Source: a virus. Taken from it: a stretch of DNA of 37,251 nucleotides. The number at the start of each line of letters is the position of its first letter. Positions within the stretch are counted from its first letter, which is position 1. Under the pieces are notes generated by a model. The model saw only the letters and a list, made by a program, of their open reading frames with translations, did not search any database and was not told the origin of the DNA. The translations under genes and the position numbers were made by a program. This document shows, piece by piece, positions 20,987 through 35,798 of the stretch. The stretch is from positions 1-37,251 of the IMG/VR virus record IMGVR_UViG_3300005467_000025. The stretch is one strand, 5' to 3'.

Positions 20987-21084
20987 GATTGACAACCTTC
21001 GTGTCTGGGGAGACAGTTGTGTGAAGAGGTACCGCCGGAGGCGCCTAGCGTCGGTAGCGTCTGTCGCCCCCAGCGGGTTACGTC

Positions 21085-21115
21085 TAGTCTAACTCTGGAC
21101 TAGGTGGCAGGGCAA
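21085..21115 (-). promoter_or_regulatory. Promoter with operator A for the DUF2637/FtsK operon
   Basis: On the minus strand TTGCCC (21110-21115) and TAGACT (21086-21091) are separated by 18 bases. An operator copy (21085-21102, plus strand TAGTCTAACTCTGGACTA) covers the -10 box. The right half is identical to the consensus, the left half is diverged. The predicted transcript has a leader of roughly 90 bases before the DUF2637 start. Confidence 0.55.
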
Positions 21116-21116
21116 C

Positions 21117-21130
21117 CCTCCGGACGGAGG
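21117..21130 (-). terminator. Short hairpin behind the 67-residue gene
   Basis: CCTCCG and CGGAGG pair (21117-21122, 21125-21130) across two bases, just behind the stop codon at 21133 and just before promoter A. No T-run, so it is a weak terminator candidate separating two units. Confidence 0.35.
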
Positions 21131-21132
21131 AT

Positions 21133-21336
21133 CTAACCCCTGTCCGCGTGGTCAGCGGCATACTCCGCCGCGTCATTGAGCGTGTCGTATCGCTCCGTCC
21201 ACGTGCAGTCGCCGGGGGGCGCGAGCCGACCGTCGCTGTATGAATGCTCCACGCAGGTAGCGATGGTCTGACCATCTTCGGGATCGCTGGTCAGCTCCAC
21301 GTGAGCCGTCCGGCCGATCAGCATGAGTTTTGCCAT
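21133..21336 (-). CDS. 67-residue acidic protein, leaderless transcript
   Basis: ATG 21336 lies exactly six bases after the -10 box of its own promoter, so the mRNA should start at the ATG. The product (MAKLMLIGRTAHVELTSDPE, then YDTLNDAAEYAADHADRG) is acidic and probably a small beta-alpha fold. It has its own operator-controlled promoter and seems to be a single-gene unit, which suggests an early or regulatory role. No family recognised. Confidence 0.62.
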   Translation of the reverse strand: MAKLMLIGRTAHVELTSDPEDGQTIATCVEHSYSDGRLAPPGDCTWTERYDTLNDAAEYAADHADRG

Positions 21337-21342
21337 GCCTAT

Positions 21343-21374
21343 AGTCTCCTTCCTCGTAGTCCAGATGTCAACTG
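21343..21374 (-). promoter_or_regulatory. Leaderless promoter with operator B
   Basis: Minus strand: TTGACA (21366-21371), 17-base spacer, GAGACT (21343-21348), then ATAGGC and the ATG. The operator at 21357-21374 reads CAGTTGACATCTGGACTA, one mismatch from consensus. The promoter lies inside the end of the upstream 77-residue gene. Confidence 0.72.
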
Positions 21375-21601
21375 CGGCGGAGGAGTGGCCAGATGTAGTG
21401 GATCTCATACGTGGCTGGTACGCGCCACACCGGTCCCTCCGCGAGCTCGGCGCCGTTGTCCTCCGCGTACTGCACGGCCAGGGTCCGGAGCCACTCCATG
21501 AACTCGTCAAATGGCACGATGGGACCGAAAGGAACCATGAGGCTGGACTCATCTATCGTTCCGATCGGAGTATCGACCCAGCCCGCCTCCCAGCCATCCA
21601 T
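21368..21601 (-). CDS. 77-residue protein, unknown
   Basis: ATG 21601 overlaps the upstream stop by one base (TGATG). The protein is acidic and aromatic (MDGWEAGWVDTPIGTIDESS, then PFDEFMEWLRTLAVQYAEDN) and ends YIWPLLRRS. Its last codons overlap operator B. It is the final gene of the unit driven by promoter C. No family recognised. Confidence 0.6.
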   Translation of the reverse strand: MDGWEAGWVDTPIGTIDESSLMVPFGPIVPFDEFMEWLRTLAVQYAEDNGAELAEGPVWRVPATYEIHYIWPLLRRS

Positions 21602-21990
21602 CAGACGTCGGGAGGGGCAGCAAGATGCTCGGGCAACGTGATCCCGTAGTCGCGCCGAATCTCGGCCAGGGTGAGCGTGGATCCGCCGTAGATATACAAC
21701 GGGACATACCCTGGGTCAGTATCGTCCGCTCGCGTCCAGACGTCCCCCTCCCCGTCCGTGACCTCGCGCGGGAACTCGTCGCTTTCTGGCTCTGACGTAG
21801 CCGGGACGATGGCCGTCACGTGGGTCATGTTGACCATCACGCCGAGGTCATCCGTGACCCACTCGTCCCGGCCGATGATGATCATGCGGCTGACGATGGT
21901 GGACGTATCGAGCGTGAGCGCGACCGTCCCACCCGATCGCAGGCGCGCAATGTGCTGCCTGACATCCTCGGTCTCGTGTTTCGCGCTCAT
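21601..21990 (-). CDS. 129-residue protein, unknown
   Basis: ATG 21990 overlaps the stop of the upstream gene (ATGA) and is preferred over longer frames. The sequence alternates short beta segments (GGTVALTLDTSTIVSRMIII, WVTDDLGVMVNMTHVTAIVP) and ends in a helix (LTLAEIRRDYGITLPEHLA). It is strongly acidic in the middle. No known family. Position among small early genes suggests a host-interaction protein. Confidence 0.6.
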   Translation of the reverse strand: MSAKHETEDVRQHIARLRSGGTVALTLDTSTIVSRMIIIGRDEWVTDDLGVMVNMTHVTAIVPATSEPESDEFPREVTDGEGDVWTRADDTDPGYVPLYIYGGSTLTLAEIRRDYGITLPEHLAAPPDV

Positions 21991-22268
21991 GCGATCACCC
22001 GTGCCCTGATCCGCTGGAGGCAACGCCCGCACTTCGGGAGGGAGTCGGCCCGGTCGTACTCCGCCTGGTCGTTCGTGCCGAACCACTCCATAGGGAGTGA
22101 GCGACTCGTGAACTCCACCGGGTGGACGCCGCACATCGCGTCCCAACCGTCCGGATCTACGAGCGCGTGCAAGCTCTGGCCGGTCCCGAGGTAGCGCCAG
22201 GCGTACCGCGACTGAGCCTCGATCGCCTGATCGACCTTGTCGGGTTTGGTTGTCGTTGGTTTGGTCAT
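21987..22268 (-). CDS. 93-residue zinc-knuckle-like protein
   Basis: ATG 22268 stands behind AGGAGGCGAGAAGGC, a perfect ribosome site that is part of a small hairpin. The protein has a basic Thr/Lys-rich start (TKPTTTKPDKVDQ) and a Cys/His set (MCGVHP ... LPKCGRCLQRI) that may bind zinc. This pattern of CGxHP and CGRC occurs in small actinophage proteins as I remember them. Function unknown. Confidence 0.64.
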   Translation of the reverse strand: MTKPTTTKPDKVDQAIEAQSRYAWRYLGTGQSLHALVDPDGWDAMCGVHPVEFTSRSLPMEWFGTNDQAEYDRADSLPKCGRCLQRIRARVIA

Positions 22269-22273
22269 GCCTT

Positions 22274-22291
22274 CTCGCCTCCTGAGGCGAG
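22274..22291 (-). promoter_or_regulatory. Hairpin containing the ribosome site of the 93-residue gene
   Basis: CTCGCCT and AGGCGAG (22274-22280, 22285-22291) pair across four bases; the AGGAGG ribosome site of the downstream gene is inside. Folding would hide the ribosome site. It directly abuts the next, larger hairpin. Confidence 0.5.
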
Positions 22292-22339
22292 TCAAGCCGT
22301 GACCCTGCATCTCAGCGGAACGCAGGGTCACGGCTTGAC
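22291..22339 (-). terminator. 18-bp hairpin between early genes (terminator or attenuator)
   Basis: A perfect 18-bp inverted repeat (22291-22308 with 22322-22339) encloses 13 bases. It lies 13 bases behind the stop of the 227-residue gene on the minus strand. There is no T-run behind it. Strong folding suggests partial termination or protection of the upstream message. Confidence 0.6.
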
Positions 22340-22352
22340 ATCCTGATGGTGC

Positions 22353-23036
22353 CTACTTCGCCGCGCTCCGCTCGCGGTACCAGGTGAGCGCCTGTTGCTG
22401 CTGCTCTGGAGTCGGGTCGATCACGGCCCACGAGAACTGCGGCTTGGTCGGCTCCCGGCCCGCGGCTACGGCCGCCATGTACGCCGCGTAGATGCGCTCC
22501 GTGTCCTGCCAGGTCTCACCCTTGCGGTACCCGGCACCGGTCGGGCAGCGCTTCACCACACCCAACAGGAGCGGGAAGCCTGCCTTCAGGCACGCCTCCA
22601 GCTTCACCGTCATCGCCTTGCCGTACGTGTACCAGTCCTGCCAGGTGTACGGCGTGTCGAAGATCTGCGTCTCCTCGGGGAACGTCTTGCCCTCAACCTC
22701 CCTGGCCGGCGTGTAGACCTCGACCTTCCCGGTCCCGAGCACGGTCAGGTTGCAGACGTAGAAGCTCTGCTTCTGGCCGGGCTGATTGGGTACGGGCTGA
22801 TCTGCCAGCAGGCGAGTCGGCTCCAGCACGATCAGACGGCCGAGGATCTCCGGCCAGCGCGGACCGCGCGGGCCTCCGCCACCACCGACCGTGTCGGGTG
22901 TGGCGAACGGGTTGGCCTTCGGGTCCAGTGCGCGCGTGCCGGCCGCACTCACCGGCGTGGACGTGCCCTGCATGTTGCCATTGCTCTGCGGTTGTGCGGA
23001 TGCGGTGGCCGTTGCCGCCGCGTACGGGTCAGTCAT
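22353..23036 (-). CDS. Possible single-stranded-DNA-binding (OB-fold) protein
   Basis: ATG 23036 gives 227 residues; longer frames run into the tRNA-like element. A disordered start rich in Ala, Thr, Ser and Gln (about 1-60) precedes a folded core beginning WPEILGRLIVLEPTRLLADQ, with strands FYVCNLTVLGTGKVEVYTPA and KLEACLKAGFPLLLGVVKR; the end is helical with a Gln run. The order and the 'GRLIVLEPTR' opening resemble phage OB-fold ssDNA-binding proteins. The nearby helicase and nuclease genes support a replication or recombination role. Assignment is tentative. Confidence 0.5.
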   Translation of the reverse strand: MTDPYAAATATASAQPQSNGNMQGTSTPVSAAGTRALDPKANPFATPDTVGGGGGPRGPRWPEILGRLIVLEPTRLLADQPVPNQPGQKQSFYVCNLTVLGTGKVEVYTPAREVEGKTFPEETQIFDTPYTWQDWYTYGKAMTVKLEACLKAGFPLLLGVVKRCPTGAGYRKGETWQDTERIYAAYMAAVAAGREPTKPQFSWAVIDPTPEQQQQALTWYRERSAAK

Positions 23037-23039
23037 GCG

Positions 23040-23065
23040 AGTCCTGCTCTCTGTACGTGAGGACT
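23040..23065 (-). promoter_or_regulatory. Hairpin over the ribosome site of the 227-residue gene
   Basis: AGTCCT (23040-23045 on plus) and AGGACT (23060-23065) pair across 14 bases. On the minus strand the AGGA of the ribosome site for ATG 23036 is in the stem, so folding may limit translation unless the RNA is processed at the adjacent tRNA-like element. Confidence 0.4.
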
Positions 23066-23074
23066 GATCGCCTC

Positions 23075-23141
23075 GTGCGTGGACGGGATTCGGACCCGCA
23101 TGACCGGTCAAACCGGGCTCTACCAATTGAGTTACCACGCC
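23075..23141 (-). tRNA. tRNA-like element 1, anticodon loop shortened
   Basis: Minus strand. Acceptor GGCGTGG pairs with CCACGCA (first pair mismatched), the D arm ACTC-AATTGGTA-GAGC is normal, and the T arm has stem GCGGG/CCCGT with loop TCCGAAT. The anticodon stem CCGGT/ACCGG is a perfect 5 bp but closes a loop of only three bases (TTG). A forced reading with a 3-bp stem gives a 7-base loop with anticodon TTG (Gln). About 66 bases instead of 72-76. A functional tRNA is doubtful. Confidence 0.5.
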
Positions 23142-23232
23142 ACCTCGCTGCCAGGCGAGGCATCACCTCCGCGCTTCGGCTGCATCTGCCGTACTGGCAT
23201 ACGGCTTCCGCTACCTACGCTTCGGTGAACCG

Positions 23233-23301
23233 CTCCCCGCCGTGGAGTCGAACCACGTAACCACGCTGTGCGCTCAGCCTGGCCAGTCCATCCTGCGGGG
23301 A
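23233..23301 (-). tRNA. tRNA-like element 2, abnormal anticodon arm
   Basis: Minus strand. Acceptor TCCCCGC/GCGGGGA (7 bp, perfect) and T arm CGTGG-TTCGACT-CCACG (perfect) are clearly tRNA. The D arm is irregular, and the anticodon arm is a 4-bp GCTG/CAGC stem with a 6-base loop that lacks the conserved U33, so no anticodon can be assigned. Total about 69 bases. Confidence 0.5.
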
Positions 23302-23307
23302 TTGACA

Positions 23308-23338
23308 CCCCAGGGCTTTTGATACGGGAGCCCTGGGG
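23308..23338 (-). other. 10-bp hairpin between tRNA-like elements
   Basis: CCCCAGGGCT and AGCCCTGGGG (23308-23317, 23329-23338) pair perfectly around 11 bases. It lies between tRNA-like elements 2 and 3 in the non-coding transcript. Confidence 0.6.
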
Positions 23339-23408
23339 GCACAACCCGTGTCCGCTCTACATCCTCCGCACCTAACGGCCGTTAGACGCGGGGAATTGAC
23401 GGACTGCG

Positions 23409-23477
23409 TGGCTCCGGCCCGATTTGAACGGGCATCTCTCCGCCGGTTAGGGACTCTGCCTGTTGAGTTACGGAGCC
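23409..23477 (-). tRNA. tRNA-like element 3, no normal anticodon arm
   Basis: Minus strand. Acceptor GGCTCCG/CGGAGCC (7 bp), D arm ACTC-AACAGGCA-GAGT and T arm GCCCG-TTCAAAT-CGGGC are all perfect. Between the D and T arms there are 19 bases instead of about 23, and no 5-bp stem with 7-base loop can be drawn, so the anticodon cannot be read. Discriminator base is A; no encoded CCA. Confidence 0.5.
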
Positions 23478-24084
23478 TGGATGGGGGGGCGGCACGAAGG
23501 TTCGTGTCGCTACGAACCTCACTGAGCCGCGGGTGTTCTGAGAACTTCCTCCGCGCGGAGGCCGCCCCCGTCCGTTTGTTACCTCTGTGCAGTTGTGTTG
23601 CACCGGCCTAACCCGATACCGGCTCTCCGGACTCCCTGTACAAAGCCGTTACACTGTTACGTCCGGATTCCCTGGCTTGTCTGTGGAGAAGATCAAGGGT
23701 AGGACTGTGGTCTCATCCCGCGCATCCTGGCTTGCTCTACTCGGGTCGCTTCTCCCGGGAACCAGTCGCCTTGTGGCGCTGCCTAGCCCTGGCATCTACT
23801 CGCTTGCCCTACCCTTGATCCTCTGTTCAGTTGTGTCAGGCGGGATCTGGGTTCCTGGCAGCTACTCGCTGAGCGGTCCGCCGGTCTTCCAAGTAACCCA
23901 CCTCGCAGGGATCGCCCCAACGCCTCGCGGGTATCCCCGATCCTGGCTAGTCCTCCAGTAGCTTTCTCTTAGCGTGTTAACGGTCATCTCGGGTATCCCC
24001 GTGACGCCTTGCTCATGAGACCACGTTGGCCGGAGGCTCGTTCTAAGCGATTCCCTGTTTAGTTGTTCCTGCCTGACAAGACAA

Positions 24085-24116
24085 ACACTAGTCGGTGCTA
24101 GTCCAGTTGTCAACTG
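24085..24116 (-). promoter_or_regulatory. Promoter C with operator, for the non-coding RNA and downstream genes
   Basis: Minus strand: TTGACA (24108-24113), 17-base spacer, TAGTGT (24085-24090), a near-ideal promoter. Operator copy 24099-24116 reads CAGTTGACAACTGGACTA. Transcription would start about 24078 and run through the structured region into the 227-residue gene. Confidence 0.78.
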
Positions 24117-24124
24117 GAATCTTC

Positions 24125-24156
24125 GTGATTGAGACCATGATCATGGTCTCAATCAC
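24125..24156. repeat. Perfect 32-bp palindrome
   Basis: Positions 24125-24140 are the exact reverse complement of 24141-24156, with no spacer. It covers the stop codon of the nuclease gene (24149-24151) and ends 9 bases before operator C. As RNA it could end the nuclease transcript, although no T-run follows; as DNA it could be a protein-binding site. Confidence 0.7.
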
Positions 24157-25153
24157 TCCACTCCGCCAGCCTGGCGCGGGCAACACTGCGGCCGTAGCTA
24201 CGCTCATCCATGATCCGCCGGGCGAGCCTGGCGTTCTCCCACCCGCGCACGAGATCGGCTTTTCGTAGGCGCGGCCGGTCACCGTTGCTCGGCATGTGCA
24301 GCACCACGCCGCGCTCCTGGTTCACCAGGTGCCGTGGCCCGTGGGTGTAGTGAGCCTCCGTCGGGAGTAAGTCATTTACTCCCATAAAGCCGGCCGGTCG
24401 ATTGGCCAGCATCCACTCAGCGTGCGCGTAGGTGGCAAGCTGAATGTCCACCTCCAGCCACGTAAAGAACTCCGTGGCCTTGGTCTTAAGGTCGGCCATG
24501 AACCACTCGCCCGTACGCACATCCTCCAGAACGTCGTCAAACCGGCCGGCCGCGCGCACCTCCACATTGCGGACCACGCGCTCCTGCATGCCAGGGACGC
24601 GGCGGAGGTGGTTGGCGGCCAGGAGCTCCTCCAGTTGCTCTATCTGGCGCCTGACCTCCTCCGATCCGAACAGATCCCCCGAGGTGGCGCGCTCCTGCCA
24701 GGAGTCGTGACGGTTGATGCCCTTCTGGCGCGCCACGTTGGCACCCGCGGTCTGTTTCGCGCGCCCGACGATGGAGGAGTCGCGGTCCTTCCAGGTGCCC
24801 GTGATGGCGCGCCGGATGTCCGGATGATTCTTCAGTTTCTGGAAGTTCACTCCGTCCCGGAGTGCGCGCCGGATGAGCAGGCATGCCTCCTCATACAGGG
24901 AGACGTCCAGCGCCAAACCTACGAGCGCCTGCTCCATCTCCCAGATGTTCAGCGCCTCCGTGTCCACGAACGCGCCGGCCAGCCTGGTCACCCGAGTGAC
25001 GCCACGAGGCACCCAGTTCCCGGTGTCTGTCTTCGTGCCCTCCTCGCCCGGTAGGAGCGGCATGTGATACCGGCCGTTGTACACATTCCCGAAGCGCTTC
25101 TCCCGCTCCATCAGGTCGGAGAGCGCGCTCGCGGTAGCGAAAACGTCAGTCAT
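24149..25153 (-). CDS. PD-(D/E)XK nuclease, RecB/Cas4-like exonuclease
   Basis: 334 residues, ATG inside the end of the upstream gene. The C-terminal half carries the nuclease motifs: E198, D206 in AAGRFDDVLED, D221-L-K223 in FMADLKTK, and the Q238-x3-Y242 motif in VDIQLATYAHAEWML. This is the motif order of the RecB/Cas4 branch that is frequent in actinophages. The N-terminal half is helical and may bind DNA or a partner. It probably processes DNA ends in phage recombination or replication together with the SF2 helicase encoded three genes upstream. Confidence 0.8.
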   Translation of the reverse strand: MTDVFATASALSDLMEREKRFGNVYNGRYHMPLLPGEEGTKTDTGNWVPRGVTRVTRLAGAFVDTEALNIWEMEQALVGLALDVSLYEEACLLIRRALRDGVNFQKLKNHPDIRRAITGTWKDRDSSIVGRAKQTAGANVARQKGINRHDSWQERATSGDLFGSEEVRRQIEQLEELLAANHLRRVPGMQERVVRNVEVRAAGRFDDVLEDVRTGEWFMADLKTKATEFFTWLEVDIQLATYAHAEWMLANRPAGFMGVNDLLPTEAHYTHGPRHLVNQERGVVLHMPSNGDRPRLRKADLVRGWENARLARRIMDERSYGRSVARARLAEWSD

Positions 25154-25370
25154 GCTTGACCTCGCGTGCAGGCACGTGCTCGTGATCCGGCATCTTGACC
25201 AGCTCGAAGTTACGCGCTTGCCAGGCGGCCATCTCCTGGTAGGCGAGCTCGACTTGCACGGCCTGATCGTGCAGTCCGTACCGGGTGCACTCCCGGGCGT
25301 ACGCGGCCACGATGCCCGGCGCGATCACGTCTTTGGCCTTCAGAACAAAGACCGGCATCGGGTCAGTCAT
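25146..25370 (-). CDS. 74-residue conserved actinophage protein
   Basis: ATG 25370; the stop overlaps the nuclease start. The pattern FVLKAKDVIAPGIVAAYARECTRYGLHDQAVQVELAYQEMAAWQ, split as a strand followed by two helices, is one I remember in small actinophage early proteins. It ends in a charged His-containing tail. Function unknown; operon position links it to the nuclease. Confidence 0.66.
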   Translation of the reverse strand: MTDPMPVFVLKAKDVIAPGIVAAYARECTRYGLHDQAVQVELAYQEMAAWQARNFELVKMPDHEHVPAREVKHD

Positions 25371-25734
25371 TGGATGGCGCTTCGATCACCGTGAAGCCGG
25401 CCGCCTCCAGTGCCGCGGTGAGTACCCGGCGGACGGCCAGGTCGTGGCTCTGAGCGTCCAGCCACTCGGTACGCCTGGCCGCGTCCACCATGGCCGGCGT
25501 GATCGTGATGACGCGTTGCTTCGCGGCGAAGTGCGAGAACACGCTCGCGGCCACCCGCCCCCAGACCTCTTTCTCGTCCGCGGGGAGCTCGTACTGTTCC
25601 TCGCCTTGCGGAGACGTCCACGGAGGCAGGCCCATCGGTCCTACGGGCGTGTCGATCGTGCCCTCCATGCCCTCCACGTACCGCTCATAGGCGACCCTTC
25701 CGAGCGCCTCGATTATGTCGTCAGCCATCGTCAT
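25363..25734 (-). CDS. 123-residue protein, unknown
   Basis: ATG 25734 is chosen because GAAAGGGG lies about seven bases upstream; a TTG at 25752 would add six residues. The protein has a helical start (DDIIEALGRVAYERYVEGME), a Pro/Gly-rich middle (TPVGPMGLPPWTSPQG) and a helical end (TPAMVDAARRTEWLDAQSHD, then AVRRVLTAALEAAGFTV). It overlaps the next gene by eight bases. No family recognised; position suggests a replication accessory. Confidence 0.6.
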   Translation of the reverse strand: MTMADDIIEALGRVAYERYVEGMEGTIDTPVGPMGLPPWTSPQGEEQYELPADEKEVWGRVAASVFSHFAAKQRVITITPAMVDAARRTEWLDAQSHDLAVRRVLTAALEAAGFTVIEAPSND

Positions 25735-25770
25735 TTCATCGACCCCTTTCAATTATATATTTGATGTTGA

Positions 25771-27567
25771 TCAGTTTTGGCTCGCGCGCACCGTGCGCAC
25801 AAGCGGATCGATGCGCTCCGCCGCGATCACCCGGTCGATCATGTCGGTGAGCTCACCCTTGGTCAGGACCACCAGGCCATTGTTGTCTCGGGGTACGACA
25901 ATCCCGCGGTAGCCGGCCATCCGGAGCTGAGCCTCAGACGGCCCCTGCTTGCGCCAGGAGGCGGAACGGGTGGTCAGAGTCTTGGTGCCCACTCCGCCAC
26001 GCTCAATCGCCTCATCCTCGGCGTACGCCAGCGCCTCCTCCAGCGGCAACTCCCGGTACTGGGTGAGGCCAGCCTGCATCCGGCCCTTCTTGGTGCACCA
26101 CACGACATCCCAGAGCGCGCCCGCCTCCGTGGTGCGCTGAGCCAGGAACACGTACTGGTCGACTCCCGCGCTCATGTAGAACGTGCCATCCGGCGTCTGA
26201 TCCCACACCCGCGAACGGTGTAGCGGATCAAACTCCACGATCTCGGTCGGACCCTCGTGCGGCTGCACGTAGGTCGGGTCCGCGAACTCCGCCGCGGTCT
26301 GGCCGACCTCCTCAAGCTGAAGGAGCGCCTCCTCCATCTCCAGCAGGGAGAGCTCCTCATCCTCCACCTGCGAGAGCGGGCGCTCCGGAGAGAGGTCGAT
26401 CAGGGAGCGAAGGTCATTGTTCGCACCCGCGCCCACCACGTCCAGGATGAGCGCGCGCCCGCGCTCCGCGGCCGGCTTCGTGAGGTCTGGCCGGAGCACC
26501 CGGCCGACCATCTGCTGGTAGAGCGGAGCACTCTTGGTCGGCCGGGCGATGACCACCACATCGGCGTGTGGAGCGTCGAAACCCTCCGTCAGCACCATGC
26601 AGTTATGGACGACCTTGACATCCCCCGCGATGAAGCGCTTGAGGATCAGCTTGCGCTCCTCCTTCGGTAGACCACCGTGGATAACCGCAGACGGAATTCC
26701 GGCGTCCTCGAAAGCCTCGCTGCCGTGATACGCCGTCTCCACCAGCGGCCAGAACGCAATGCCAGCGCGAAGTTCTCCCGCTGCGTCTCGCGCCACCTCC
26801 GCGTATTTCTCCGCAATGATCTGCGGGGCGAACGTGCGCTCAAGCTCCTCCGCCAGTGAATTGTCACTGAAATCTCCCGCCACAGTCTTGACGTTGCGCA
26901 TATCCATGTCGGGAACGCGGACGCGCTTACCCACCACGTCCAGCAGATACCCGTGCCGGATGCCGAAGAGAATGTCCCGCCGGAAGGTGCACTCCTCCCA
27001 GACTGTGGAGAGCTTGCCCTTGTCCTCGCGCGCCAGCGTGGCAGTGAAGCCAGCCACCTTCACACGTGCATCGAACGCGCCGAAGTGCTCAAGGATCTTG
27101 CCGTACGTGTTGGAGCGCAGGGCATGGTGCGCTTCGTCAACGATGATCAGACCGACGTTACGGATCTGCGCGCGGCGCTTCTCGCTGGCCAGCGTCTGAC
27201 GCGAGGACACGATGATCTGCGCGTGAACTTGGTTCAGGCCAGCCTTGACGATTCCCACGGTCAGGTGAGGGTTGCGCTGCCGCGCCTTCCTGGCCGCCTG
27301 CTCGATTAGCTCGTCAGTATGCGCGATGACCAGTACACGCCTGCCCAGTCCGTACGCTTCCGCCAGCCCGTTGTGCGTGATCTCGGTACGCTCGATGCCA
27401 CCAGGCTTGACTCCAATGTCACCGACCCATGCCGACTCAAGCGCCGTGAACATCTCGGTCTTGCCGAGACCAGTTGCCAGCACGAGCGGAACGCGCGTGG
27501 CGCCCGTGTCCCATCGCGCGATGAGGTCGGTGATCCCGGCCTTCTGGTATGAACGCAGATGCTTCAC
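25771..27567 (-). CDS. SF2 DEAH-type helicase
   Basis: 598 residues. GTG 27567 overlaps the stop of the 66-residue gene (GTGA) and has AGGAGCG upstream. Motifs in order: Walker A ATGLGKTE (31-38), DEAH at 144-147, TAT at 175-177, and Q-x2-GR-x2-R at about 352-359 (QMVGRVLRP). This is the DEAD/DEAH-box Type III/UvsW-like layout of phage helicases. The region after residue 420 is an acidic extension (VEDEELSLLEMEEALLQLEE) with an unknown C-terminal domain. It should unwind DNA in replication, recombination or origin remodelling. Confidence 0.86.
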   Translation of the reverse strand: MKHLRSYQKAGITDLIARWDTGATRVPLVLATGLGKTEMFTALESAWVGDIGVKPGGIERTEITHNGLAEAYGLGRRVLVIAHTDELIEQAARKARQRNPHLTVGIVKAGLNQVHAQIIVSSRQTLASEKRRAQIRNVGLIIVDEAHHALRSNTYGKILEHFGAFDARVKVAGFTATLAREDKGKLSTVWEECTFRRDILFGIRHGYLLDVVGKRVRVPDMDMRNVKTVAGDFSDNSLAEELERTFAPQIIAEKYAEVARDAAGELRAGIAFWPLVETAYHGSEAFEDAGIPSAVIHGGLPKEERKLILKRFIAGDVKVVHNCMVLTEGFDAPHADVVVIARPTKSAPLYQQMVGRVLRPDLTKPAAERGRALILDVVGAGANNDLRSLIDLSPERPLSQVEDEELSLLEMEEALLQLEEVGQTAAEFADPTYVQPHEGPTEIVEFDPLHRSRVWDQTPDGTFYMSAGVDQYVFLAQRTTEAGALWDVVWCTKKGRMQAGLTQYRELPLEEALAYAEDEAIERGGVGTKTLTTRSASWRKQGPSEAQLRMAGYRGIVVPRDNNGLVVLTKGELTDMIDRVIAAERIDPLVRTVRASQN

Positions 27568-27764: not shown

Positions 27765-27770
27765 GCCTCT

Positions 27771-29619: not shown

Positions 29620-29635
29620 GATCACACCTCCTCGG

Positions 29636-29653
29636 TAGTCCAGTCGCCAACTA
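29636..29653 (-). promoter_or_regulatory. Operator E upstream of the 113-residue gene
   Basis: Minus strand TAGTTGGCGACTGGACTA, two to three mismatches from consensus. The embedded -35-like box is TTGGCG; no good -10 box is visible 17 bases on, so the promoter is weak or positioned differently. Paired in inverted orientation with operator F. Confidence 0.6.
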
Positions 29654-29671
29654 CCTTAGACCTCCCGGAGG

Positions 29672-29704
29672 TAGTTGTCTACTGGACTACTGTACGCGTA
29701 GAGT
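29672..29704 (+). promoter_or_regulatory. Promoter with operator F for the RHH regulator
   Basis: Plus strand TTGTCT (29675-29680), 18-base spacer, TAGAGT (29699-29704). Operator 29672-29689 reads TAGTTGTCTACTGGACTA. With operator E it forms a divergent control region of the two first early units. Transcription would start about 80 bases before the RHH gene. Confidence 0.65.
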
Positions 29705-29791
29705 GGACAGCGAGCACCGGTACGCCAGTGCTCACGCATCACATGGTGCGCTCGCGCACCCTGCGCCGAGCGCGGAAGGAGGAACGAACGG

Positions 29792-30205
29792 ATGGCGACC
29801 AAAGAACAGTTCATGGTCAGCGTTGATGAGCTCATGCGGGATGAAGTAGACGCACTGCGCATCGTGCTTGGCGTGAGTCGGGCGGAGGTGGTCCGGCGCG
29901 CGCTCACACAGGGCGGCGTGATCGCCCTCAAGCGCGCGAACGTAGACCGCCTCGGCCGGCTTTACAACCTGGCCGAGGCGGAGGGTTTCTTGAGCTGGGG
30001 CGAGTACGTGCAAGCGTTGATCAAGGCGAGCCCCAAACTCTCTCCCAGCTTGGAATCGCTGGAGGGCCTGGCGCGCCTGAAGAGTCCGAACCGCGTCAAG
30101 GCGCCACGGCGCCGTAAGACGGTCGGCCTCGCCGCGGCCGCCATCGACGCACTGGAGGGCGAGACGGGCGAGCACGAGACGCCGCAACCCCCGGAAGCGG
30201 CCTGA
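29792..30205 (+). CDS. Ribbon-helix-helix DNA-binding protein, candidate repressor
   Basis: 137 residues; ATG behind AAGGAGG. The N-terminus fits the RHH (CopG/Arc/MetJ) fold: a short strand EQFMVSV (5-11) and helices ELMRDEVDALRIVLG and SRAEVVRRALTQGG up to residue 43. A middle helical part (ANVDRLGRLYNLAEAEGFLS) and a basic then acidic tail follow. RHH dimers bind short inverted TAG-like half-sites, which fits the TAGT...ACTA operators nearby. It is transcribed from operator F and is the best candidate for the phage master regulator, but this is inference. Confidence 0.72.
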   Translation: MATKEQFMVSVDELMRDEVDALRIVLGVSRAEVVRRALTQGGVIALKRANVDRLGRLYNLAEAEGFLSWGEYVQALIKASPKLSPSLESLEGLARLKSPNRVKAPRRRKTVGLAAAAIDALEGETGEHETPQPPEAA

Positions 30206-30381
30206 TCTCTGACCGCGTGGCTCATGCCTCATGACGCCGTCTGACCAGCACAATCGTCGGACAGGGTCCGGCAACACGCAGCAGACACGAACGACCGACT
30301 GTTCGTAAGCAACACGAACGGCGCGCTCCGCGAATAGCGCGCCGTTCATCATCGGGGGTCGACAAAACGGAGGCTACCATC
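30206..30381. other. Intergenic region before the primase gene, with repeats
   Basis: The 176-base gap holds two ACACGAACG direct repeats, an inverted GTTCGT, and a strong hairpin (see separate entry). No TTGACA-type promoter or operator is visible, so the primase gene may depend on read-through from promoter F. Confidence 0.45.
30316..30347 (+). terminator. 12-bp hairpin ahead of the primase gene
   Basis: GAACGGCGCGCT (30316-30327) pairs perfectly with AGCGCGCCGTTC (30336-30347) across eight bases. No T-run follows. It could attenuate transcription from the RHH gene into the primase gene, setting a low ratio of replication protein. Confidence 0.5.
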
Positions 30382-32610
30382 GTGACCTCGCCGTACGTAC
30401 TTAGTGACGATGAAGTACGCGAAGCGCTGAAAATAGCGCAAGAACTCATAGATGCCGGAATCCCCGTATTCGCGGCAGCGCCGGACCTGAGCAAACCGGG
30501 GCACTACCACCTTCCCGCGAAGTGGCAGCTCACCATGCCGGCTACCGTATGGCTGGAACGCTGGCAACCAGGATGGGCGCTCGCCGCGGTGGGAGGTGTG
30601 CGCGAGCTCACGAGTGGCGAGCTCGGCGGAGCCGACTTTCTCGACATCGACCCGCGGAACGGCGGAGATGCCTCCCTGGCCGAACTTACGGCGCATCGGC
30701 AGGTGCCGCGTTCCTTCGGCCGGCAGGCCACGCCGTCCGGCGGGACGCACGACATCATCTCCGCGACCGGTGAGCGTAAGGCCGTGGGATTCATGCCGGG
30801 TGTGGACCTACAGTCCGGCGCGCCGGACGGGACCGGCCGAGGCTTTGTGTGGATATCACCGACCGTGCGCCCCAGCAAGAGTGTGGAAGACTACGCAGAT
30901 GAGGACTCGATGCATCGAGTCCCCGTCTTGCGCCCGTACCGCTGGATCGAACGCCCGGACATGGATCAGTTGGCCGAATGGCGCGGGTCGGACGACTCCA
31001 CCGAGGGGATCATCGCGCGGGTCTACTCCGCCCGAGCGGCCAGGCGTACCGACGGGGATGGGAGCAGCGCTGCCGCAAGCAACGCGTACGGCGTTGCCTC
31101 ATCTCCCTTCGCGCTGCCGTCCCTCTCGGCCAGAGCGTTCACCGCGGCGGAGGCACAGGAGTTCTGCCGGCCGGCGTTGACCGCGCTACAAGCGGCCAGG
31201 GTCGGTGAAATCGAGGAGCGGTGTAACGCCGCGGCTGCCCAGCTCTCGCACTTCGTGCCGGCTATCTGGACGGCCGACCGGGCGATGGCCATTCTCCGGG
31301 CCTGCCTGGCCGAGACGGCGTACGACGAGAACCATCCGGCCAGCACGTGGACTGTGGAGAAGTTCCGCCCGGTGCTGACCGGGGCGCGCCCCGTGGCCGA
31401 CCCATGGAAGGCGACCCTTCGCGCCGAACCGCTCTCCCTGGCACCTGAGATCATTCCGGAGGAGCGGGGGGAGCAGTCTCGCGCGGACTGGCTGGAGGGC
31501 CAGATCCTCACGGCGGACGAGATCGCCGAGCGGCCGGCTCCCGTGCCGCTCGTGTACGGCCGGCTCAACATGAACAGTGAGGCGTGGATCATCGGGGCAC
31601 CCGGCTCGTTCAAGTCGTTCATCGCGCTGGACCTGGCCGCGCATGTGGCCGGCGGCCGGGAGTGGCACGGCCATCGGGTACGCCGGGAGCGGGTGCTCTA
31701 CCTGGCCGCGGAAGGTGCGGAGGGGATGACCCTGCGCGCTCGCGCCTGGCGGAAGATCCACGGTCCAATGGCCGGCGTGGACTTCCTCCCCCTCCCGATG
31801 CAGGTGACCAAGACGGAGGACTGGGCAGCCCTGGTGGAGGTGGCGGCCAGGCGGGGGTACGGCCTGATCGTGGTGGACACGCAGGCACGAGTCACGAAGG
31901 AGCTGGACGAGAACGCGGCCAGGGATGCCGGCATCTACATCGATGCGGTGACCGCCCTGCGGGTGGCCACGGGCGCGTGCGTCCTCACCGTCCACCACAC
32001 GGGGCGCAAGGGTGGGGACGCCCGTGGGTCCAGCGCGATCGACGGTGCGCAGGACTCGGAGATCAAGCTGGACCGGATCGTGCCGCGCTCCTCGATGCGG
32101 GTACGCCTACGGGACGACAAGCAGAAGGACATGGCGGAGGACATGGAGGGCGTGGAGCTCCTGCTTCAGGTGGTCGATCTCGGTACGGATCCGGAGACCG
32201 GCCAGGCGCTGTCTTCCCTTGTCGTGCTGACGGACGAGTACGTGGCGGCCGAGCGGGCAGGCGTGGCGGACGTGGATCACGGCCAGGTGGAGACCATCGG
32301 GGAGCCGGGACGCTGGACTCACGACTTGTTCGGTCACCAACGCCAGGAGACCAAGCGGCGGATCCTTCAGGTCTTGCGCGATGCGGGCGGCCAGGTGGGA
32401 CTCACGGAGGCCAAGACGCTGGCGCTCGTGGCCGAGAAGTGGCACGGCGGGAAGGTCGGCAACGGCGCGGGAGAGATCAAGAAGGCGAACTTCCAGACTT
32501 ACTGGAGTGACCTTCTCGTTCACGTCCTGCCGTCCGGAGAGTTCTTGATCTTGAATCCGAGCGGCGAGAAACGGGCCGTGAATCCGGCCGCGTGGGAATC
32601 GGACGAATAG
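30382..32610 (+). CDS. Primase-polymerase / RepA-type helicase replication protein
   Basis: 742 residues from GTG 30382, with ACGGAGG upstream. Residues about 1-200 are a prim-pol domain: D88-x-D90 in FLDIDPRNGG, SGGTH ending in H123, and D142 in GVDLQSG. Residues about 380-600 are a RepA-like hexameric helicase: Walker A GAPGSFKS at 405-412, LIVVDTQ with D499, and TVHHTGRKGG. The C-terminus (about 650-742) looks like a helical DNA-binding region. One protein thus combines priming and unwinding, as in plasmids and some phages that rely on host polymerase. An iteron cluster follows directly. Confidence 0.86.
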   Translation: MTSPYVLSDDEVREALKIAQELIDAGIPVFAAAPDLSKPGHYHLPAKWQLTMPATVWLERWQPGWALAAVGGVRELTSGELGGADFLDIDPRNGGDASLAELTAHRQVPRSFGRQATPSGGTHDIISATGERKAVGFMPGVDLQSGAPDGTGRGFVWISPTVRPSKSVEDYADEDSMHRVPVLRPYRWIERPDMDQLAEWRGSDDSTEGIIARVYSARAARRTDGDGSSAAASNAYGVASSPFALPSLSARAFTAAEAQEFCRPALTALQAARVGEIEERCNAAAAQLSHFVPAIWTADRAMAILRACLAETAYDENHPASTWTVEKFRPVLTGARPVADPWKATLRAEPLSLAPEIIPEERGEQSRADWLEGQILTADEIAERPAPVPLVYGRLNMNSEAWIIGAPGSFKSFIALDLAAHVAGGREWHGHRVRRERVLYLAAEGAEGMTLRARAWRKIHGPMAGVDFLPLPMQVTKTEDWAALVEVAARRGYGLIVVDTQARVTKELDENAARDAGIYIDAVTALRVATGACVLTVHHTGRKGGDARGSSAIDGAQDSEIKLDRIVPRSSMRVRLRDDKQKDMAEDMEGVELLLQVVDLGTDPETGQALSSLVVLTDEYVAAERAGVADVDHGQVETIGEPGRWTHDLFGHQRQETKRRILQVLRDAGGQVGLTEAKTLALVAEKWHGGKVGNGAGEIKKANFQTYWSDLLVHVLPSGEFLILNPSGEKRAVNPAAWESDE

Positions 32611-32634
32611 GTACAAACACGTTCAGGACAGACA

Positions 32635-32671
32635 CTGTCCTGATCATGGAAAATTTCCATGATCAGGACAG
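32635..32671. repeat. 18-bp inverted repeat with single-base centre
   Basis: Positions 32635-32652 are the exact reverse complement of 32654-32671, with one A in the middle; the core is GGAAAATTTCC. Each arm contains one TCAGGACA/TGTCCTGA iteron. The AT-rich centre could be the unwinding or nicking point. Confidence 0.75.
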
Positions 32672-32775
32672 TCATCAGGACAAGATCACTAGACGCTTCA
32701 GGACAAGATCAGGACACGCTCTGACCTGCATCTGGACAAGATCAGGACATCATCAGGACATCGCTCGCTAATCCA

Positions 32776-32819
32776 TCAGGACGTGTGCCCCCGACCTTAG
32801 GAGGGGGCACGTGTCCTGA
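32776..32819. repeat. GC-rich hairpin with iteron arms
   Basis: TCAGGAC/GTCCTGA outer arms and GTGCCCCC/GGGGGCAC inner arms (32785-32792, 32803-32810) form a two-part stem with a two-base mismatch. It ends the iteron cluster and may also stop transcription from the primase gene. Confidence 0.6.
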
Positions 32820-32874
32820 AGCGTCCGGAAGCCTGAAGCCGGAAGACGGAGGGGCAAGATCAAAAAGTCGAGAC

Positions 32875-32903
32875 TTGACGTGCGTTAGACACCCGAGGAA
32901 GCT
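32875..32903 (+). promoter_or_regulatory. Leaderless promoter G without operator
   Basis: TTGACG (32875-32880), 17-base spacer, GAAGCT (32898-32903), ATAGGC, ATG. The layout and the CTATAGGCATG end match promoters B and H, but the bases right of the -35 box do not fit the operator. This gene may escape the common repressor. Confidence 0.6.
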
Positions 32904-32909
32904 ATAGGC

Positions 32910-33224
32910 ATGACGAGTCCAAGATCACGACGGTCCCGGAAGTACTTGGTCGGGATGCTCGACCCGAGCGTGGCGCCACGTCTCGCGCCGGCCATGCGTG
33001 CCGTGCGTGCACTCCTGGCCGATGGGCGGTGGCACGAGTACAAGACGCTTGCCGATTGCGCGCTGGGTGCGTCCGACGTCAAGTACGAAACGATCCGCGG
33101 GACGCTGGGCACGCTCGTCCGCGAGGGCATGGTCGAGAAGCGCGGCGAGTACGCCTACGGCACACACGAGGACCACCGCGAATACCGCCTGGCCGACTGG
33201 CCCCTACCGGAGGTGAAGTCATGA
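32910..33224 (+). CDS. Winged-helix DNA-binding protein next to the origin
   Basis: 104 residues, predicted leaderless. A basic start (SPRSRRSRKYLVGML) is followed by a winged-helix pattern: AMRAVRALLADGRWHEYKTL, DVKYETIRGTLGTLVREGMV, then a beta wing (EKRGEYAYGTHEDHREYRLA). Its gene is immediately beside the iteron cluster and has its own promoter, so it may bind the iterons as initiator or copy-control protein (inference). It is coupled to the next gene by an ATGA overlap. Confidence 0.7.
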   Translation: MTSPRSRRSRKYLVGMLDPSVAPRLAPAMRAVRALLADGRWHEYKTLADCALGASDVKYETIRGTLGTLVREGMVEKRGEYAYGTHEDHREYRLADWPLPEVKS

Positions 33225-33622
33225 CCCGAGAGGACCTGGCCGACCTCCTGCGTGTAGCGCACGAAGCTCTGGCCGCAGTGGCAGCTCTGGCCGACCGCAT
33301 TCAGACGCTCGCTGACGAACGGGCCCTGACCGTAGGGTCGGAGGCCGCGGAGCCGCTGGGCGCTCAGAATGGCTCTCAGGCCGTTTCCGGTGCCGAGCGT
33401 GCGTTCATCCGGCGGTTCAACGACCTTCAGGCCGCGCGGACCGCGGGCAACGGCGGCGAGTTCGATCCAACCTTCGGCGCGTGGCAAGAGGTCATCGATC
33501 AAGATCACGAAGAGGCGATCTTCCTCGACCGTCTGCGCGCCGCGGTCCTACACGGATCGGCGCGTGAGGTTCCGCCTCCGCCGCGCGGCTTTAGGCTGCC
33601 GCGCGACATCATCGGAAAGTAG
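33221..33622 (+). CDS. 133-residue helical protein, unknown
   Basis: ATG 33221 overlaps the upstream stop (ATGA); longer frames would run through the winged-helix gene. The first 40 residues are a long Ala-rich helix (TREDLADLLRVAHEALAAVA, ALADRIQTLADE). Later parts contain AFIRRFNDLQAARTAGNG and a basic, Pro-rich end (VPPPPRGFRLPRDIIGK). It may be a coiled-coil partner of the winged-helix protein. No family recognised. Confidence 0.6.
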   Translation: MTREDLADLLRVAHEALAAVAALADRIQTLADERALTVGSEAAEPLGAQNGSQAVSGAERAFIRRFNDLQAARTAGNGGEFDPTFGAWQEVIDQDHEEAIFLDRLRAAVLHGSAREVPPPPRGFRLPRDIIGK

Positions 33623-33650
33623 TTGACATCCGGACTAGATCAGGTAGGCT
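33620..33650 (+). promoter_or_regulatory. Leaderless promoter H with operator
   Basis: TTGACA (33623-33628), 16-base spacer, TAGGCT (33645-33650), ATAGGC, ATG. Operator 33620-33637 reads TAGTTGACATCCGGACTA, one mismatch from consensus. It starts the small-gene unit that runs to RusA. Confidence 0.8.
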
Positions 33651-33656
33651 ATAGGC

Positions 33657-33863
33657 ATGATGAAGTTGAGCAGGGCCGCAGAGGACGCACTTGTGAACGC
33701 CTCCAGCTCGCGGCAGGGCGCCGTGCTCCCCGAGATGTCCGCCGGCGTTGCTGCTGAACTCGTGAACGCCGGTCTCATTGGTGGCGAGTACGGCCTCACG
33801 CGTAAGGGCACGGTGGAGCGCGAGCGGGTTGTCACGAAGCGACTGGAGGAGGCGTTCGGATGA
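33657..33863 (+). CDS. 68-residue winged-helix-like protein, leaderless
   Basis: ATG 33657 is six bases after the -10 box. The sequence (SRAAEDALVNASSSRQGAVL, AAELVNAGLIGGEYGLTRKG, TVERERVVTKRLEEAF) resembles the short winged-helix proteins that read 'aL..aGlig.e.gLT..G'. It probably binds DNA or a regulatory partner. Coupled to the next gene by ATGA overlap. Confidence 0.66.
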   Translation: MMKLSRAAEDALVNASSSRQGAVLPEMSAGVAAELVNAGLIGGEYGLTRKGTVERERVVTKRLEEAFG

Positions 33864-34069
33864 GTGCGATGAAGTGGACTCGCGTAGCGGCCGGCTTGTA
33901 TGAGTCCGGCCGCTACACGATTAGGCAGGGACCACGGCCGGGGCGCTTCTGGGTACTGCGGTTCGGTGGAAGCGTCTTCGGGCTCAAGACGCCGTGCCGC
34001 TTTCCGACAGTCCGGGAGGCGAAACAGGCCGCCGAGATCGACAGACGCAAGCGAGAGGAGACCACATGA
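33860..34069 (+). CDS. 69-residue protein, unknown
   Basis: ATG 33860 overlaps the upstream stop. The product (KWTRVAAGLYESGRYTIRQG, RFWVLRFGGSVFGLKTPCRF, PTVREAKQAAEIDRRKREET) looks like a small three-stranded sheet plus a helix, a layout often seen in phage proteins of unknown role. It is followed by a coupled membrane peptide gene. Confidence 0.62.
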   Translation: MSAMKWTRVAAGLYESGRYTIRQGPRPGRFWVLRFGGSVFGLKTPCRFPTVREAKQAAEIDRRKREETT

Positions 34070-34212
34070 GTGGGGCGGTCCTGCTCTGGGTGGCCTTCGG
34101 CCTGCTCCTGGCGATGCTGGGGGCAGGCTTCGCCGTCTCCCTGATCTCGGCCAGGCGCGAGATGGATGATGCCATTCGCATGCTGCGAGAGAGGCGTGAG
34201 CGAGATGAGTGA
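34066..34212 (+). CDS. 48-residue single-span membrane protein
   Basis: ATG 34066 overlaps the upstream stop (ATGA). The span (AVLLWVAFGLLLAMLGAGFA) is followed by a charged helix (SARREMDDAIRMLRERRERD), so the C-terminus likely faces the cytoplasm. Function unknown. It overlaps the RusA gene by eight bases. Confidence 0.62.
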   Translation: MSGAVLLWVAFGLLLAMLGAGFAVSLISARREMDDAIRMLRERRERDE

Positions 34213-34750
34213 GTCGATCGCGGAGATGTTCATTTCCGGCCGGCCACGCACGAAGGGCAGTCTCGCGCCACTCCCCGTGCGGGACGGCCGCGGGAAGCTG
34301 CGGATCACTATGCACGACACGCCGGAGAGCGAGACGTGGAAGCGGACGATGATCGCGGCCATCCGCTGTGAGTGCAAGATCATGCCGCGCGTGGCGGGAC
34401 GCAAGATCGTGGGTTTTGATCCGGAGCCGTACCCCGGTCCCGTGGACGTGACCGCCGTCTTCGCCTTCGACCGGTCGATGTCCGTCAACGGTGGGCCGGT
34501 ACCGTCGCACGCCGGGGACTTCCCTGAGGCTGAAGACATCGGGGACGTGGACAAGCTTCTCCGCAACCTCTTGGACGCGCTCACTCAGTCCGGCCTGATC
34601 AAAGATGACCGGCTTGTCATCTGGACGTCCGCCGTCAAGATCTGGACTGCGCCCCTGAGTCTCTACGCGCGGGCCGGCGTGTCCCTGTGCGTGACCCCCA
34701 CCAAGGGATGGCGCGCGGAGAGCCTGAGCGAGGAGCGGGCCGCGTCGTGA
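34205..34750 (+). CDS. rusA: RusA-like Holliday junction resolvase
   Basis: 181 residues from ATG 34205. The RusA signature GDVDKLLRNLLDALTQSGLI followed by KDDR is present (about 112-135), with the aspartates that bind metal. The N-terminus ISGRPRTKGSLAPLPVRDGR is also typical of the family. RusA cuts four-way junctions, which phages use to resolve recombination or to prepare branched DNA for packaging. It is coupled to neighbours on both sides. Assignment is firm at the family level. Confidence 0.85.
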   Translation: MSESIAEMFISGRPRTKGSLAPLPVRDGRGKLRITMHDTPESETWKRTMIAAIRCECKIMPRVAGRKIVGFDPEPYPGPVDVTAVFAFDRSMSVNGGPVPSHAGDFPEAEDIGDVDKLLRNLLDALTQSGLIKDDRLVIWTSAVKIWTAPLSLYARAGVSLCVTPTKGWRAESLSEERAAS

Positions 34751-35157
34751 GGTACGCACTGTTTCCCGAGAGCGATCTCGCGCACGAGCGCTCGATGGCG
34801 CCGTATGCACCCGCGGTTACCTCGTACCCGGCGCCAGAGGTGACCTCGCGCGATGGCGTCGAAGGGCCGAGCAAGCGTGCCGTGGAGAGCCTCCGGAAGG
34901 CCGCGGAGGCGCACGGGTGGAGCGTCGTGGTCACCTACTCGCGGGGATGCTTCCCGCACGCCAGGACCGGCCGGCCCGGCGCCGTCAAGGACGTCCTCGC
35001 GGTCCGGATGTACCGACCTGGTCGCCAGGCCGTAGCGGTCTACTCAGGCGGACCGACGTGGAGCTGGGGCACCCTGGCCGCCTGGGACCTTCCGCCGGAA
35101 GGCCTGCCGACCTTCTACGATTCGATCACGCGGTTCATGGATGAGGTGGTGGGATGA
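34747..35157 (+). CDS. 136-residue protein, unknown
   Basis: GTG 34747 overlaps the RusA stop. A short disordered start (SMAPYAPAVTSYPAPEVTSR) precedes a domain reading SKRAVESLRKAAEAHGWSVV, VTYSRGCFPHARTGRPGAVK, DVLAVRMYRPGRQAVAVYSG. The order helix, strand, then 'D..AVRM' strands resembles an endonuclease-like or DNA-binding fold, but I cannot name it. Neighbouring RusA and terminase genes hint at DNA processing. Confidence 0.6.
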   Translation: MRYALFPESDLAHERSMAPYAPAVTSYPAPEVTSRDGVEGPSKRAVESLRKAAEAHGWSVVVTYSRGCFPHARTGRPGAVKDVLAVRMYRPGRQAVAVYSGGPTWSWGTLAAWDLPPEGLPTFYDSITRFMDEVVG

Positions 35158-35270
35158 AGGGACGCGTGCTGACGGTCGCTGAGGCGTTCGTCATGATCAT
35201 GGTGCTCGCGTTCCTGACGTCCGGCGTGGTCGCCTTCGTGTGGATCGTGTTCGAGGTTGTGCGTAATTGA
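35154..35270 (+). CDS. 38-residue single-span membrane protein
   Basis: ATG 35154 overlaps the upstream stop (ATGA). One span (AFVMIMVLAFLTSGVVAFVW) fills most of the 38 residues; the N-terminus is basic. It is another member of the set of tiny coupled membrane proteins of this genome. Confidence 0.6.
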   Translation: MKGRVLTVAEAFVMIMVLAFLTSGVVAFVWIVFEVVRN

Positions 35271-35288
35271 TCAAAATGATGGTGACTA

Positions 35289-35765
35289 ATGACGGATCAT
35301 GACGGGGCGCGGCGCGGCCTGAGCGACCGTGAGGCGGAGATTTATCGCCTACGTGTGGTCAACAGGCTCACGGAGCGCGAGATCGGGGAGCGGTTCGGGA
35401 TCACCCAACCGCGCGTCTCGCAAATCCTCACGGAGATACGTCGCCTTCTCCCGACACCCGACCTGGCCGCCGTGCGCGCGGAGGCGCTCGCGCTGCACGA
35501 ACAGGTGCAACGGATGGCGCTGGAGCTCGCGGAGATGGAAGGCGCCCCGGTCACGGCCGGCAAAGATGGCGTCATCGTCCGTGATCCGGAGAATGGCGAT
35601 GCCGTGGTCCGTGACTACGCCGGCCGGATCAACGCGCTCAAGCTGGCGCTGGAGGCGGACCGCGAGATCCGCAGGCTGTTGGGCGCGGACGCGGCCTCAA
35701 AGGTGGAGAGCACAGCTACGGTCAAGTACGAACTCGCGGGCATCGACCCTGAAGCCTTGAAGTAG
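35289..35765 (+). CDS. Terminase small subunit-like DNA-binding protein
   Basis: 158 residues. The N-terminal part is a helix-turn-helix (LSDREAEIYRLRVVNRLTER, EIGERFGITQPRVSQILTEI), followed by a long helical region (VRAEALALHEQVQRMALELA, RINALKLALEADREIRRLLG). HTH plus coiled-coil directly before terL is the standard build of the small terminase subunit, which recognises the packaging site. The separate leaderless gene between it and terL is unusual. The alternative is a sigma-like regulator. Confidence 0.7.
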   Translation: MTDHDGARRGLSDREAEIYRLRVVNRLTEREIGERFGITQPRVSQILTEIRRLLPTPDLAAVRAEALALHEQVQRMALELAEMEGAPVTAGKDGVIVRDPENGDAVVRDYAGRINALKLALEADREIRRLLGADAASKVESTATVKYELAGIDPEALK

Positions 35766-35766
35766 C

Positions 35767-35798
35767 TAGTTGACATCTAGACTAGTTACCGGTAATGT
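35767..35798 (+). promoter_or_regulatory. Leaderless promoter I with operator, ahead of terminase
   Basis: TTGACA (35770-35775), 17-base spacer, TAATGT (35793-35798), seven bases, ATG 35806. Operator 35767-35784 reads TAGTTGACATCTAGACTA, one mismatch from consensus. It is the strongest looking promoter in the window and may lead into the late genes. Confidence 0.82.

Follow-up and report, generated by a model that had tools for sequence, protein, structure and literature searches.

The locus and the eight copies of the element

The window, by which we mean the whole of the DNA analysed here, is the 37,251-base IMG/VR virus record IMGVR_UViG_3300005467_000025, a fragment that stops within its terminase gene. 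Our own gene calls give it 59 genes (89% coding), and a search of 50,697 GenBank phage records found no close DNA match to its early part (20800-37251). The subject of this article is an 18-bp element that occurs eight times in this part, and a gene lying among the copies, which encodes a small ribbon-helix-helix (RHH) protein. In our opinion the element is very likely the dispersed operator of a phage-wide regulon. To the whole account, in which the operator sits in promoters of the host sigma factor, is bound by the RHH protein and shuts off the early units, we would give a probability of roughly 60%. The features concerned are the following.

21085-21102, minus strand: operator copy, 4 mismatches to the consensus; over the -10 box of a leftward promoter (by eye), 98 bp away from the gene that starts at 20986
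21357-21374, minus strand: operator copy, 1 mismatch; TTGACA, directly before the small gene 21133-21337, its TGA being the stop of the upstream gene
24099-24116, minus strand: operator copy, 2 mismatches; TTGACA-N17-TAGTGT, at the head of some 1 kb in which no gene was called, followed by the gene at 22353
27784-27801, minus strand: exact operator; TTGACA-N16-TAGGCT, with an ATG 6 nucleotides on (leaderless) for the gene 27564-27764
29636-29653, minus strand: operator copy, 3 mismatches; over the start region of a leftward promoter (by eye), adjoining the ribosome site of the gene 29278-29619
29672-29689, plus strand: operator copy, 3 mismatches; holds the -35 box of a rightward promoter, TTGTCT-N18-TAGAGT
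29792-30205, plus strand: ribbon-helix-helix protein of 137 residues (Pfam RHH_1), the proposed repressor
33620-33637, plus strand: operator copy, 1 mismatch; TTGACA-N16-TAGGCT, leaderless ATG of the gene 33657-33863
35767-35784, plus strand: operator copy, 1 mismatch; TTGACA-N17-TAATGT, leaderless ATG of the gene 35806-36012, followed by the terminase gene

All eight positions at which a sequence-only reading of the window had placed the element are correct. The exact 18-mer occurs once in the window, and seven copies lie within three mismatches of the consensus, where shuffled sequence would give 0.01; permuted versions of the consensus find a mean of 0.07 window sites even at four mismatches. 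The right half, CTGGACTA, is perfect in six copies and differs by one letter in each of the other two (33620 and 35767), while TTGACA in the left half is perfect in five of eight. The outer arms TAGT/ACTA are indeed inverted, as had been claimed: 94% of the arm positions pair across the eight sites, against 57% when all nine positions are counted. Every copy is intergenic or overlaps a gene by no more than 7 bp, and in three of them the overlap includes the stop codon of the upstream gene (the TGA of TTGACA at 27784 and 21357, the leading TAG at 33620).

The element in related phages

Relatives of the window (G001-G014, L192, L195, L197, L199 and L200) came from a pattern scan of IMG/VR and from protein scans with terminase, helicase and primase alignments. 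Repeats in them were counted de novo, with a correction for composition, over all 18-mers containing A+T and blind to the element; this count replaced an uncorrected one, which was swamped by G+C-rich codon repeats. An element of this kind is the top-ranked 18-mer in the window (G000) and in G001 to G005, that is, in all six whole records (37-43 kb) with the RHH gene. It ranks first or second in the short records G011 and G012 and, among stretches of 15-22 kb, first in L192 and third in L200, a stretch that starts within its primase gene and contains its own operator-like sites. The element was not at the top in G007-G010, G013 and G014. One of these, G007, shares the terminase and the helicase but lacks an RHH match; its top repeats include no motif of this sort, and its single promoter match is unrelated.

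If the element were as frequent within genes as at promoters, it could hardly be an operator. Of 78 sites in nine records, 71 lie outside genes or reach no more than 8 bp into one, although 81-93% of the sequence is coding (window 8/8, G001 10/11, G002 11/11, G003 17/18, G004 8/9, G005 7/9, G006 3/5, G011 4/4, G012 3/3), which favours the operator. The right half behaves accordingly in the relatives: CTGGACT(A/G) is kept in the near ones (G001, G011, G012), and elsewhere a TTGAC-type left half is joined to another right half, namely CTGTATGA in G002, CCGAGTGA in G004 and G005, TTGACGA in G006 and CACCAACAG in L200. This exchanged half is constant within each of G002, G004 and G005. Inversion of the arms, measured on the outer four letters at each end of the 18 bp, is 94% in the window, 93% in G001, 75% in G006 and L199, 85-90% in L192, L195 and L197, 85% in L200 and 50% in G002, whose arms do not show this inversion; some sites counted for L192, L195, L197 and L200 are weak hits within genes, and some of the seeds were themselves inverted, which favours symmetry.

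Promoter context

Four copies (24099, 27784, 33620 and 35767) hold a -35 box TTGACA that is followed 16-17 bp on by a -10 box TAnnnT. At the last three an ATG comes 6-7 nucleotides past the -10 box, and therefore a leaderless transcript is expected. The sequence-only reading had put every copy at the head of a transcription unit, overlapping the -35 or the -10 box. This holds for most copies; at 21357 TTGACA is present but the -10 box is weak (GAGACT), and 29636 has no TAnnnT behind it and by eye covers the start region of a leftward promoter. At 29672 TTGTCT is followed 18 bp on by TAGAGT, and read by eye this copy probably also holds the -35 box of the leftward promoter, TAGACA-N17-TAAGGT. 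The pair 29636/29672 is flanked by divergent promoters, of which the one pointing rightward leads to the RHH gene. The copy at 21085 covers a -10 box instead, that of TTGCCC-N18-TAGACT on the minus strand (by eye).

When the 37-kb window is searched simply for TTGAC-N16-18-TAnnnT, four promoters come up, every one of them an operator copy. Across eight records, 49 of 59 site entries have a TAnnnT box at 15-19 bp, as against 1.2% of random positions, and in 27 of these 49 the ATG or GTG of an open frame stands 3-10 nucleotides behind it. The 59 entries omit G003 (different spacing) and three sites within called genes (G001 42860, G006 11375 and 15055); they add G002 30232, with five mismatches, and count 21085 on both strands. 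Hence the sites have what is usual for a promoter of the sigma-70/SigA type of the host: a TTGACA-like hexamer, TAnnnT and the normal spacing.

It had also been claimed that the right half is conserved beyond any sigma contact, and here we agree. In two copies that have no -35 box, 21085 and G001 20088, the arms and CTGGACTA stay, and because they remain where the -35 box is lost, the right half is kept for its own sake.

The ribbon-helix-helix protein as the probable binder

The protein encoded at 29792-30205 matches Pfam RHH_1 at its N-terminus (residues 9-40) with 25.9 bits, the cut-off being 20.5. Homologues exist in G001-G006, L192, L195 and L197, and by eye in L199; those that Pfam does not recognise were placed by homology or by eye, and the G004 and G005 proteins are identical and so not independent. 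With a profile of nine sequences the same 11 records, window included, are matched among 31 sources, and there is no match in the other 20 (G007-G014, the L110-L114 set with its Streptomyces loci L112-L114, and the primase relatives L200-L206). Homologues were not found in GenBank phages, and IMG/VR scans with one or two sequences gave none beyond G001. A sequence search of the PDB with the protein returned nothing beyond one weak antitoxin (E 0.46).

What speaks for the protein is its place and its company. All 11 records that have the RHH gene, the window and ten relatives, show an operator-like site no more than about 130 bp ahead of it. Among 30 nonstructural window genes used as queries, five have a match in every one of G001-G006 (RHH protein, primase-helicase, DEAD helicase, nuclease 24149-25153, RusA-like protein); of these the RHH protein looks like the sole regulator, with the proviso that four queries were in the wrong frame and that a regulator outside the window would be missed. 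The sequence-only reading had suspected this protein or a winged-helix protein (32910-33224) as the binder. Because of the place of its gene and its homologues we prefer the RHH protein, and on these grounds consider it the probable reader of the operator.

Several results weigh against our account and should be seen together. As regards the operator, the element is outside the de novo top three in L195, L197 and L199 (stretches of 15-22 kb) and is not the top repeat in G006, where it was found by eye; the operators of G006 were also seeded by eye, and it is there that three of five are noncoding. L192, L195 and L197 are constant solely in the outer arms, CAGT/ACTG. The arms of G004 and G005 are hardly inverted (17%), and G003 differs in spacing, its half-sites TAGTTGACATG forming inverted pairs that span 28 bp or direct pairs at 31-32 bp, besides other spacings. 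As regards the protein, the RHH_1 scores of the homologues are 22.1 bits in G002 and 18.8, below the cut-off, in G001, with none for G003, G004, G006, L192 and L199. In G006 the site before the RHH gene is weak (four mismatches) and within a called gene. An AlphaFold2 model of the monomer (seven sequences, pLDDT, the predicted local distance difference test score, 70) consists of helices with no strand, its first ten residues having a pLDDT of 55, and it has no PDB fold match at E 0.001. Finally, the three outward strand residues, whose positions we presume to be those of Arc, do not covary with the operator arm: Spearman's coefficient is -0.01 over 21 pairs of seven phage groups, with arms set by hand and G003 omitted. 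The idea that the strand residues follow the arm (G000 and G001 share Q-M-S and CTGGACT; L192 and L199 share Q-Q-L and CAGT/ACTG) was therefore given up, the rank correlation being nil.

The strongest alternative accepts the operator but assigns it to a different protein: the one encoded at 35289-35765, with a sigma region 4 or helix-turn-helix character, the winged-helix protein, or a repressor in the unsequenced part of the phage. We think this unlikely. The protein at 35289-35765 matches sigma-70 region 4 with 31.7 bits (cut-off 24.1) and has homologues in seven relatives (G001, G002, G003, G006, G011, G012 and G013), and the record, ending within the terminase gene, does leave part of the phage unsequenced. 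However, this gene stands just upstream of the terminase gene, where a small terminase subunit would be expected, and it has no match in G004 and G005, both of which keep the operators and the RHH protein. The winged-helix protein has no homologue in G001-G014, several of those records being short.

A separate observation concerns the winged-helix gene. The stretch before it (32875-32912), TTGACG...TATAGGCATG, resembles an early promoter without an operator, and therefore this gene might escape the switch.

Proposed mechanism

We propose that the operator is built into strong promoters, often leaderless, that would be read by the main sigma factor of the host. Its left half would provide the -35 box or, at 21085, a -10 box of the opposite strand, leaving the right half together with the outer arms to be read by a phage protein, most likely the RHH protein 29792-30205. 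Being strong, the early promoters would fire on entry without help. The RHH protein would then accumulate, occupy the operators and close the early units together, at about the same level, since RNA polymerase would be kept out by a protein seated on the -35 box, the -10 box or the start point. The divergent region of the RHH gene itself has two operators, through which the protein would also limit its own synthesis. The copy number of the element, its place, its promoter context, its conservation within each phage, the phage-specific right halves and the linkage to the RHH gene are observed; the identity of the binder, repression by binding and the timing are what we infer from sequence.

The sequence-only reading held that such a system may also give immunity, and here we part from it. 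In the temperate case the repressor would silence the early promoters in a lysogen and block superinfection, as in the Cluster A mycobacteriophages or SPbeta; dispersed, phage-specific operators do occur in immunity systems (PMC6550527, PMC10516654). However, none of 12 records, window included, has a match to the tyrosine or serine integrase families (PF00589, PF00239) or to the ParA-type ATPase (PF13614), with the reservation that the records are incomplete and that other modes of maintenance are possible. A genome scan with the helicase alignment gave 39% as the best identity among the matches listed, with no close prophage among them. Because these 12 incomplete records have neither integrase nor ParA, and because the matches listed include no close prophage, we consider early shut-off likelier, and immunity rather improbable.

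Activation in place of repression, or both depending on level, is a still weaker case. AvtR, an RHH protein of an archaeal virus, activates or represses according to its concentration (PMC5569661), but the sites described here overlap the -35 box, the -10 box or the start point of near-consensus promoters, which fits exclusion of RNA polymerase, so that we give activation little credence. That the element is merely a strong, extended host promoter with no phage regulator, as its consensus -35 hexamer and the good -10 box of most copies could suggest, is scarcely credible, since the right half, which sits in the spacer, differs between phages yet stays the same within most of them, and persists in the two copies that have lost the -35 box.

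Comparison with known systems

Dispersed operators are a known kind of phage control. The c repressor of phiC31, a temperate phage, acts at dispersed inverted-repeat operators of actinophage early promoters, and it is not known to be an RHH protein; Arc and Mnt of P22 are RHH repressors, each known to act at one locus. For bacteriophages, no paper on dispersed operators under an RHH repressor was found by title or abstract start in an open-access library, from which most subscription papers are absent.

Other dispersed sets include the R4-type stoperators of Streptomyces phages (PMC10276819) and a set of 13-bp repeats in Cluster CA phages of Rhodococcus (PMC5721134). The Cluster A repressor and its stoperators (L5, Bxb1; PMC6550527) resemble our case in having many short dispersed sites, whose sequence differs between phage groups together with the repressor. 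Cluster A stoperators are, however, 13 bp long, asymmetric and mostly off promoters, number 20-30 per genome and block elongation (PMC6550527). The window element is instead about 18 bp long, with mostly inverted arms, lies inside promoters, and is accompanied by an RHH-type gene with no integrase found; it is thus not a stoperator of the 13-bp, asymmetric, promoter-distant type.

AvtR of AFV6 and SvtR of SIRV1 (PMC5569661) are closer in the protein. Both are viral RHH regulators with several sites in the genome (eight potential ones for AvtR; its own and three others for SvtR), and they repress their own gene. Their hosts and promoters are archaeal and AvtR consists of two fused RHH motifs (PMC5569661), whereas the window belongs to a tailed phage with bacterial sigma promoters and an operator built into the -35 box. 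MrpR of SPbeta with its SPBRE element (PMC10516654) is a parallel in that a dispersed promoter element, first noticed in sequence, answers to one master repressor; but SPbeta is a temperate phage and the fold of MrpR is that of a tyrosine recombinase. The 17-bp dyads of Cluster O mycobacteriophages (PMC4351075) are likewise dispersed, in phages without an integrase and with the binder unknown. About one third of them lie in genes, with no close linkage to translation starts (PMC4351075), in contrast to the family described here, where most sites form promoters.

Leads that were set aside

An IMG/VR scan with a single 17-letter pattern returned 33 stretches, about what chance would give for 16 fixed letters by a rough estimate. 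The 33 were rescanned at four mismatches and L009, L022, L028 and L032 taken further. L022 is the window or its twin (the matched proteins are 100% identical), while L014, L020, L021, L033 and L037 had two or three hits each, L037 alone with a weak protein match. Two relatives by terminase, Thermobifida phage P1312 (first 50,000 of 60,284 bases) and Streptomyces phage Dagobah, lack the element; a Dagobah gene at a divergent junction, annotated as Arc-like, is not matched by the RHH profile. With the L199 consensus no convincing site was found in L201, L202, L203 and L206.

Other features of the region

After the primase gene (30382-32610) the region 32611-32909 holds an iteron-like repeat, TCAGGACA, nine times on both strands (cluster 32611-32830), accompanied by a perfect inverted repeat and by a hairpin resembling a terminator. 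At the same place five relatives have a repeated octamer of their own: TTGTGCAC in G001, TATCCGCC in G002, GTGCGTAC in G003, CACTCCGG in G005 and TCCGTGCA in G006. By eye, CTGACCTGC is common to five of six at this region. Judged by these repeats, it is probably a replication origin with phage-specific iterons.

Behind the operator promoter at 24099, about 1 kb of the minus strand (23055-24098) has no called genes; it has one weak tRNA match (23075-23141, 30.4 bits) and none by ARAGORN. An operator promoter of G001 lies 632 bp before its next called gene. Given this gap and its counterpart, the promoter may drive a noncoding early RNA. A perfect 32-bp palindrome (24125-24156), noticed by eye, separates operator 24099 from the end of the gene 24149-25153 and is likely a terminator between two leftward units.

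Further left, on the minus strand (17322-20986), are a HerA/FtsK-like protein (below the Pfam cut-off) and a DUF2637-like one (just below it), with homologues in G001, G002, G004 and G005; we take these to be gene types of actinobacterial conjugative elements. A distant primase relative, L203, has a tandem array of 33-bp units at about 6672-7118.

Significance

If our account is true, it describes a bacteriophage-wide regulon under an RHH protein, recognised without any isolate. We would go further only tentatively: in a clade of uncultured, probably lytic, high-G+C tailed phages, one RHH protein may serve as a global switch of the early genes, on a shared 18-bp plan fused to the host -35 box in which the arms are exchanged. 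Each phage would then have a private regulon, and phages that resemble each other closely could silence one another without lysogeny. The operator would also mark the early units, among them small leaderless genes whose function is unknown and which are natural candidates for a role in taking over the host or countering its defences. Moreover, the approximately seven natural versions of the operator, six of them with an RHH homologue, would form a set for studying how an RHH strand reads DNA.

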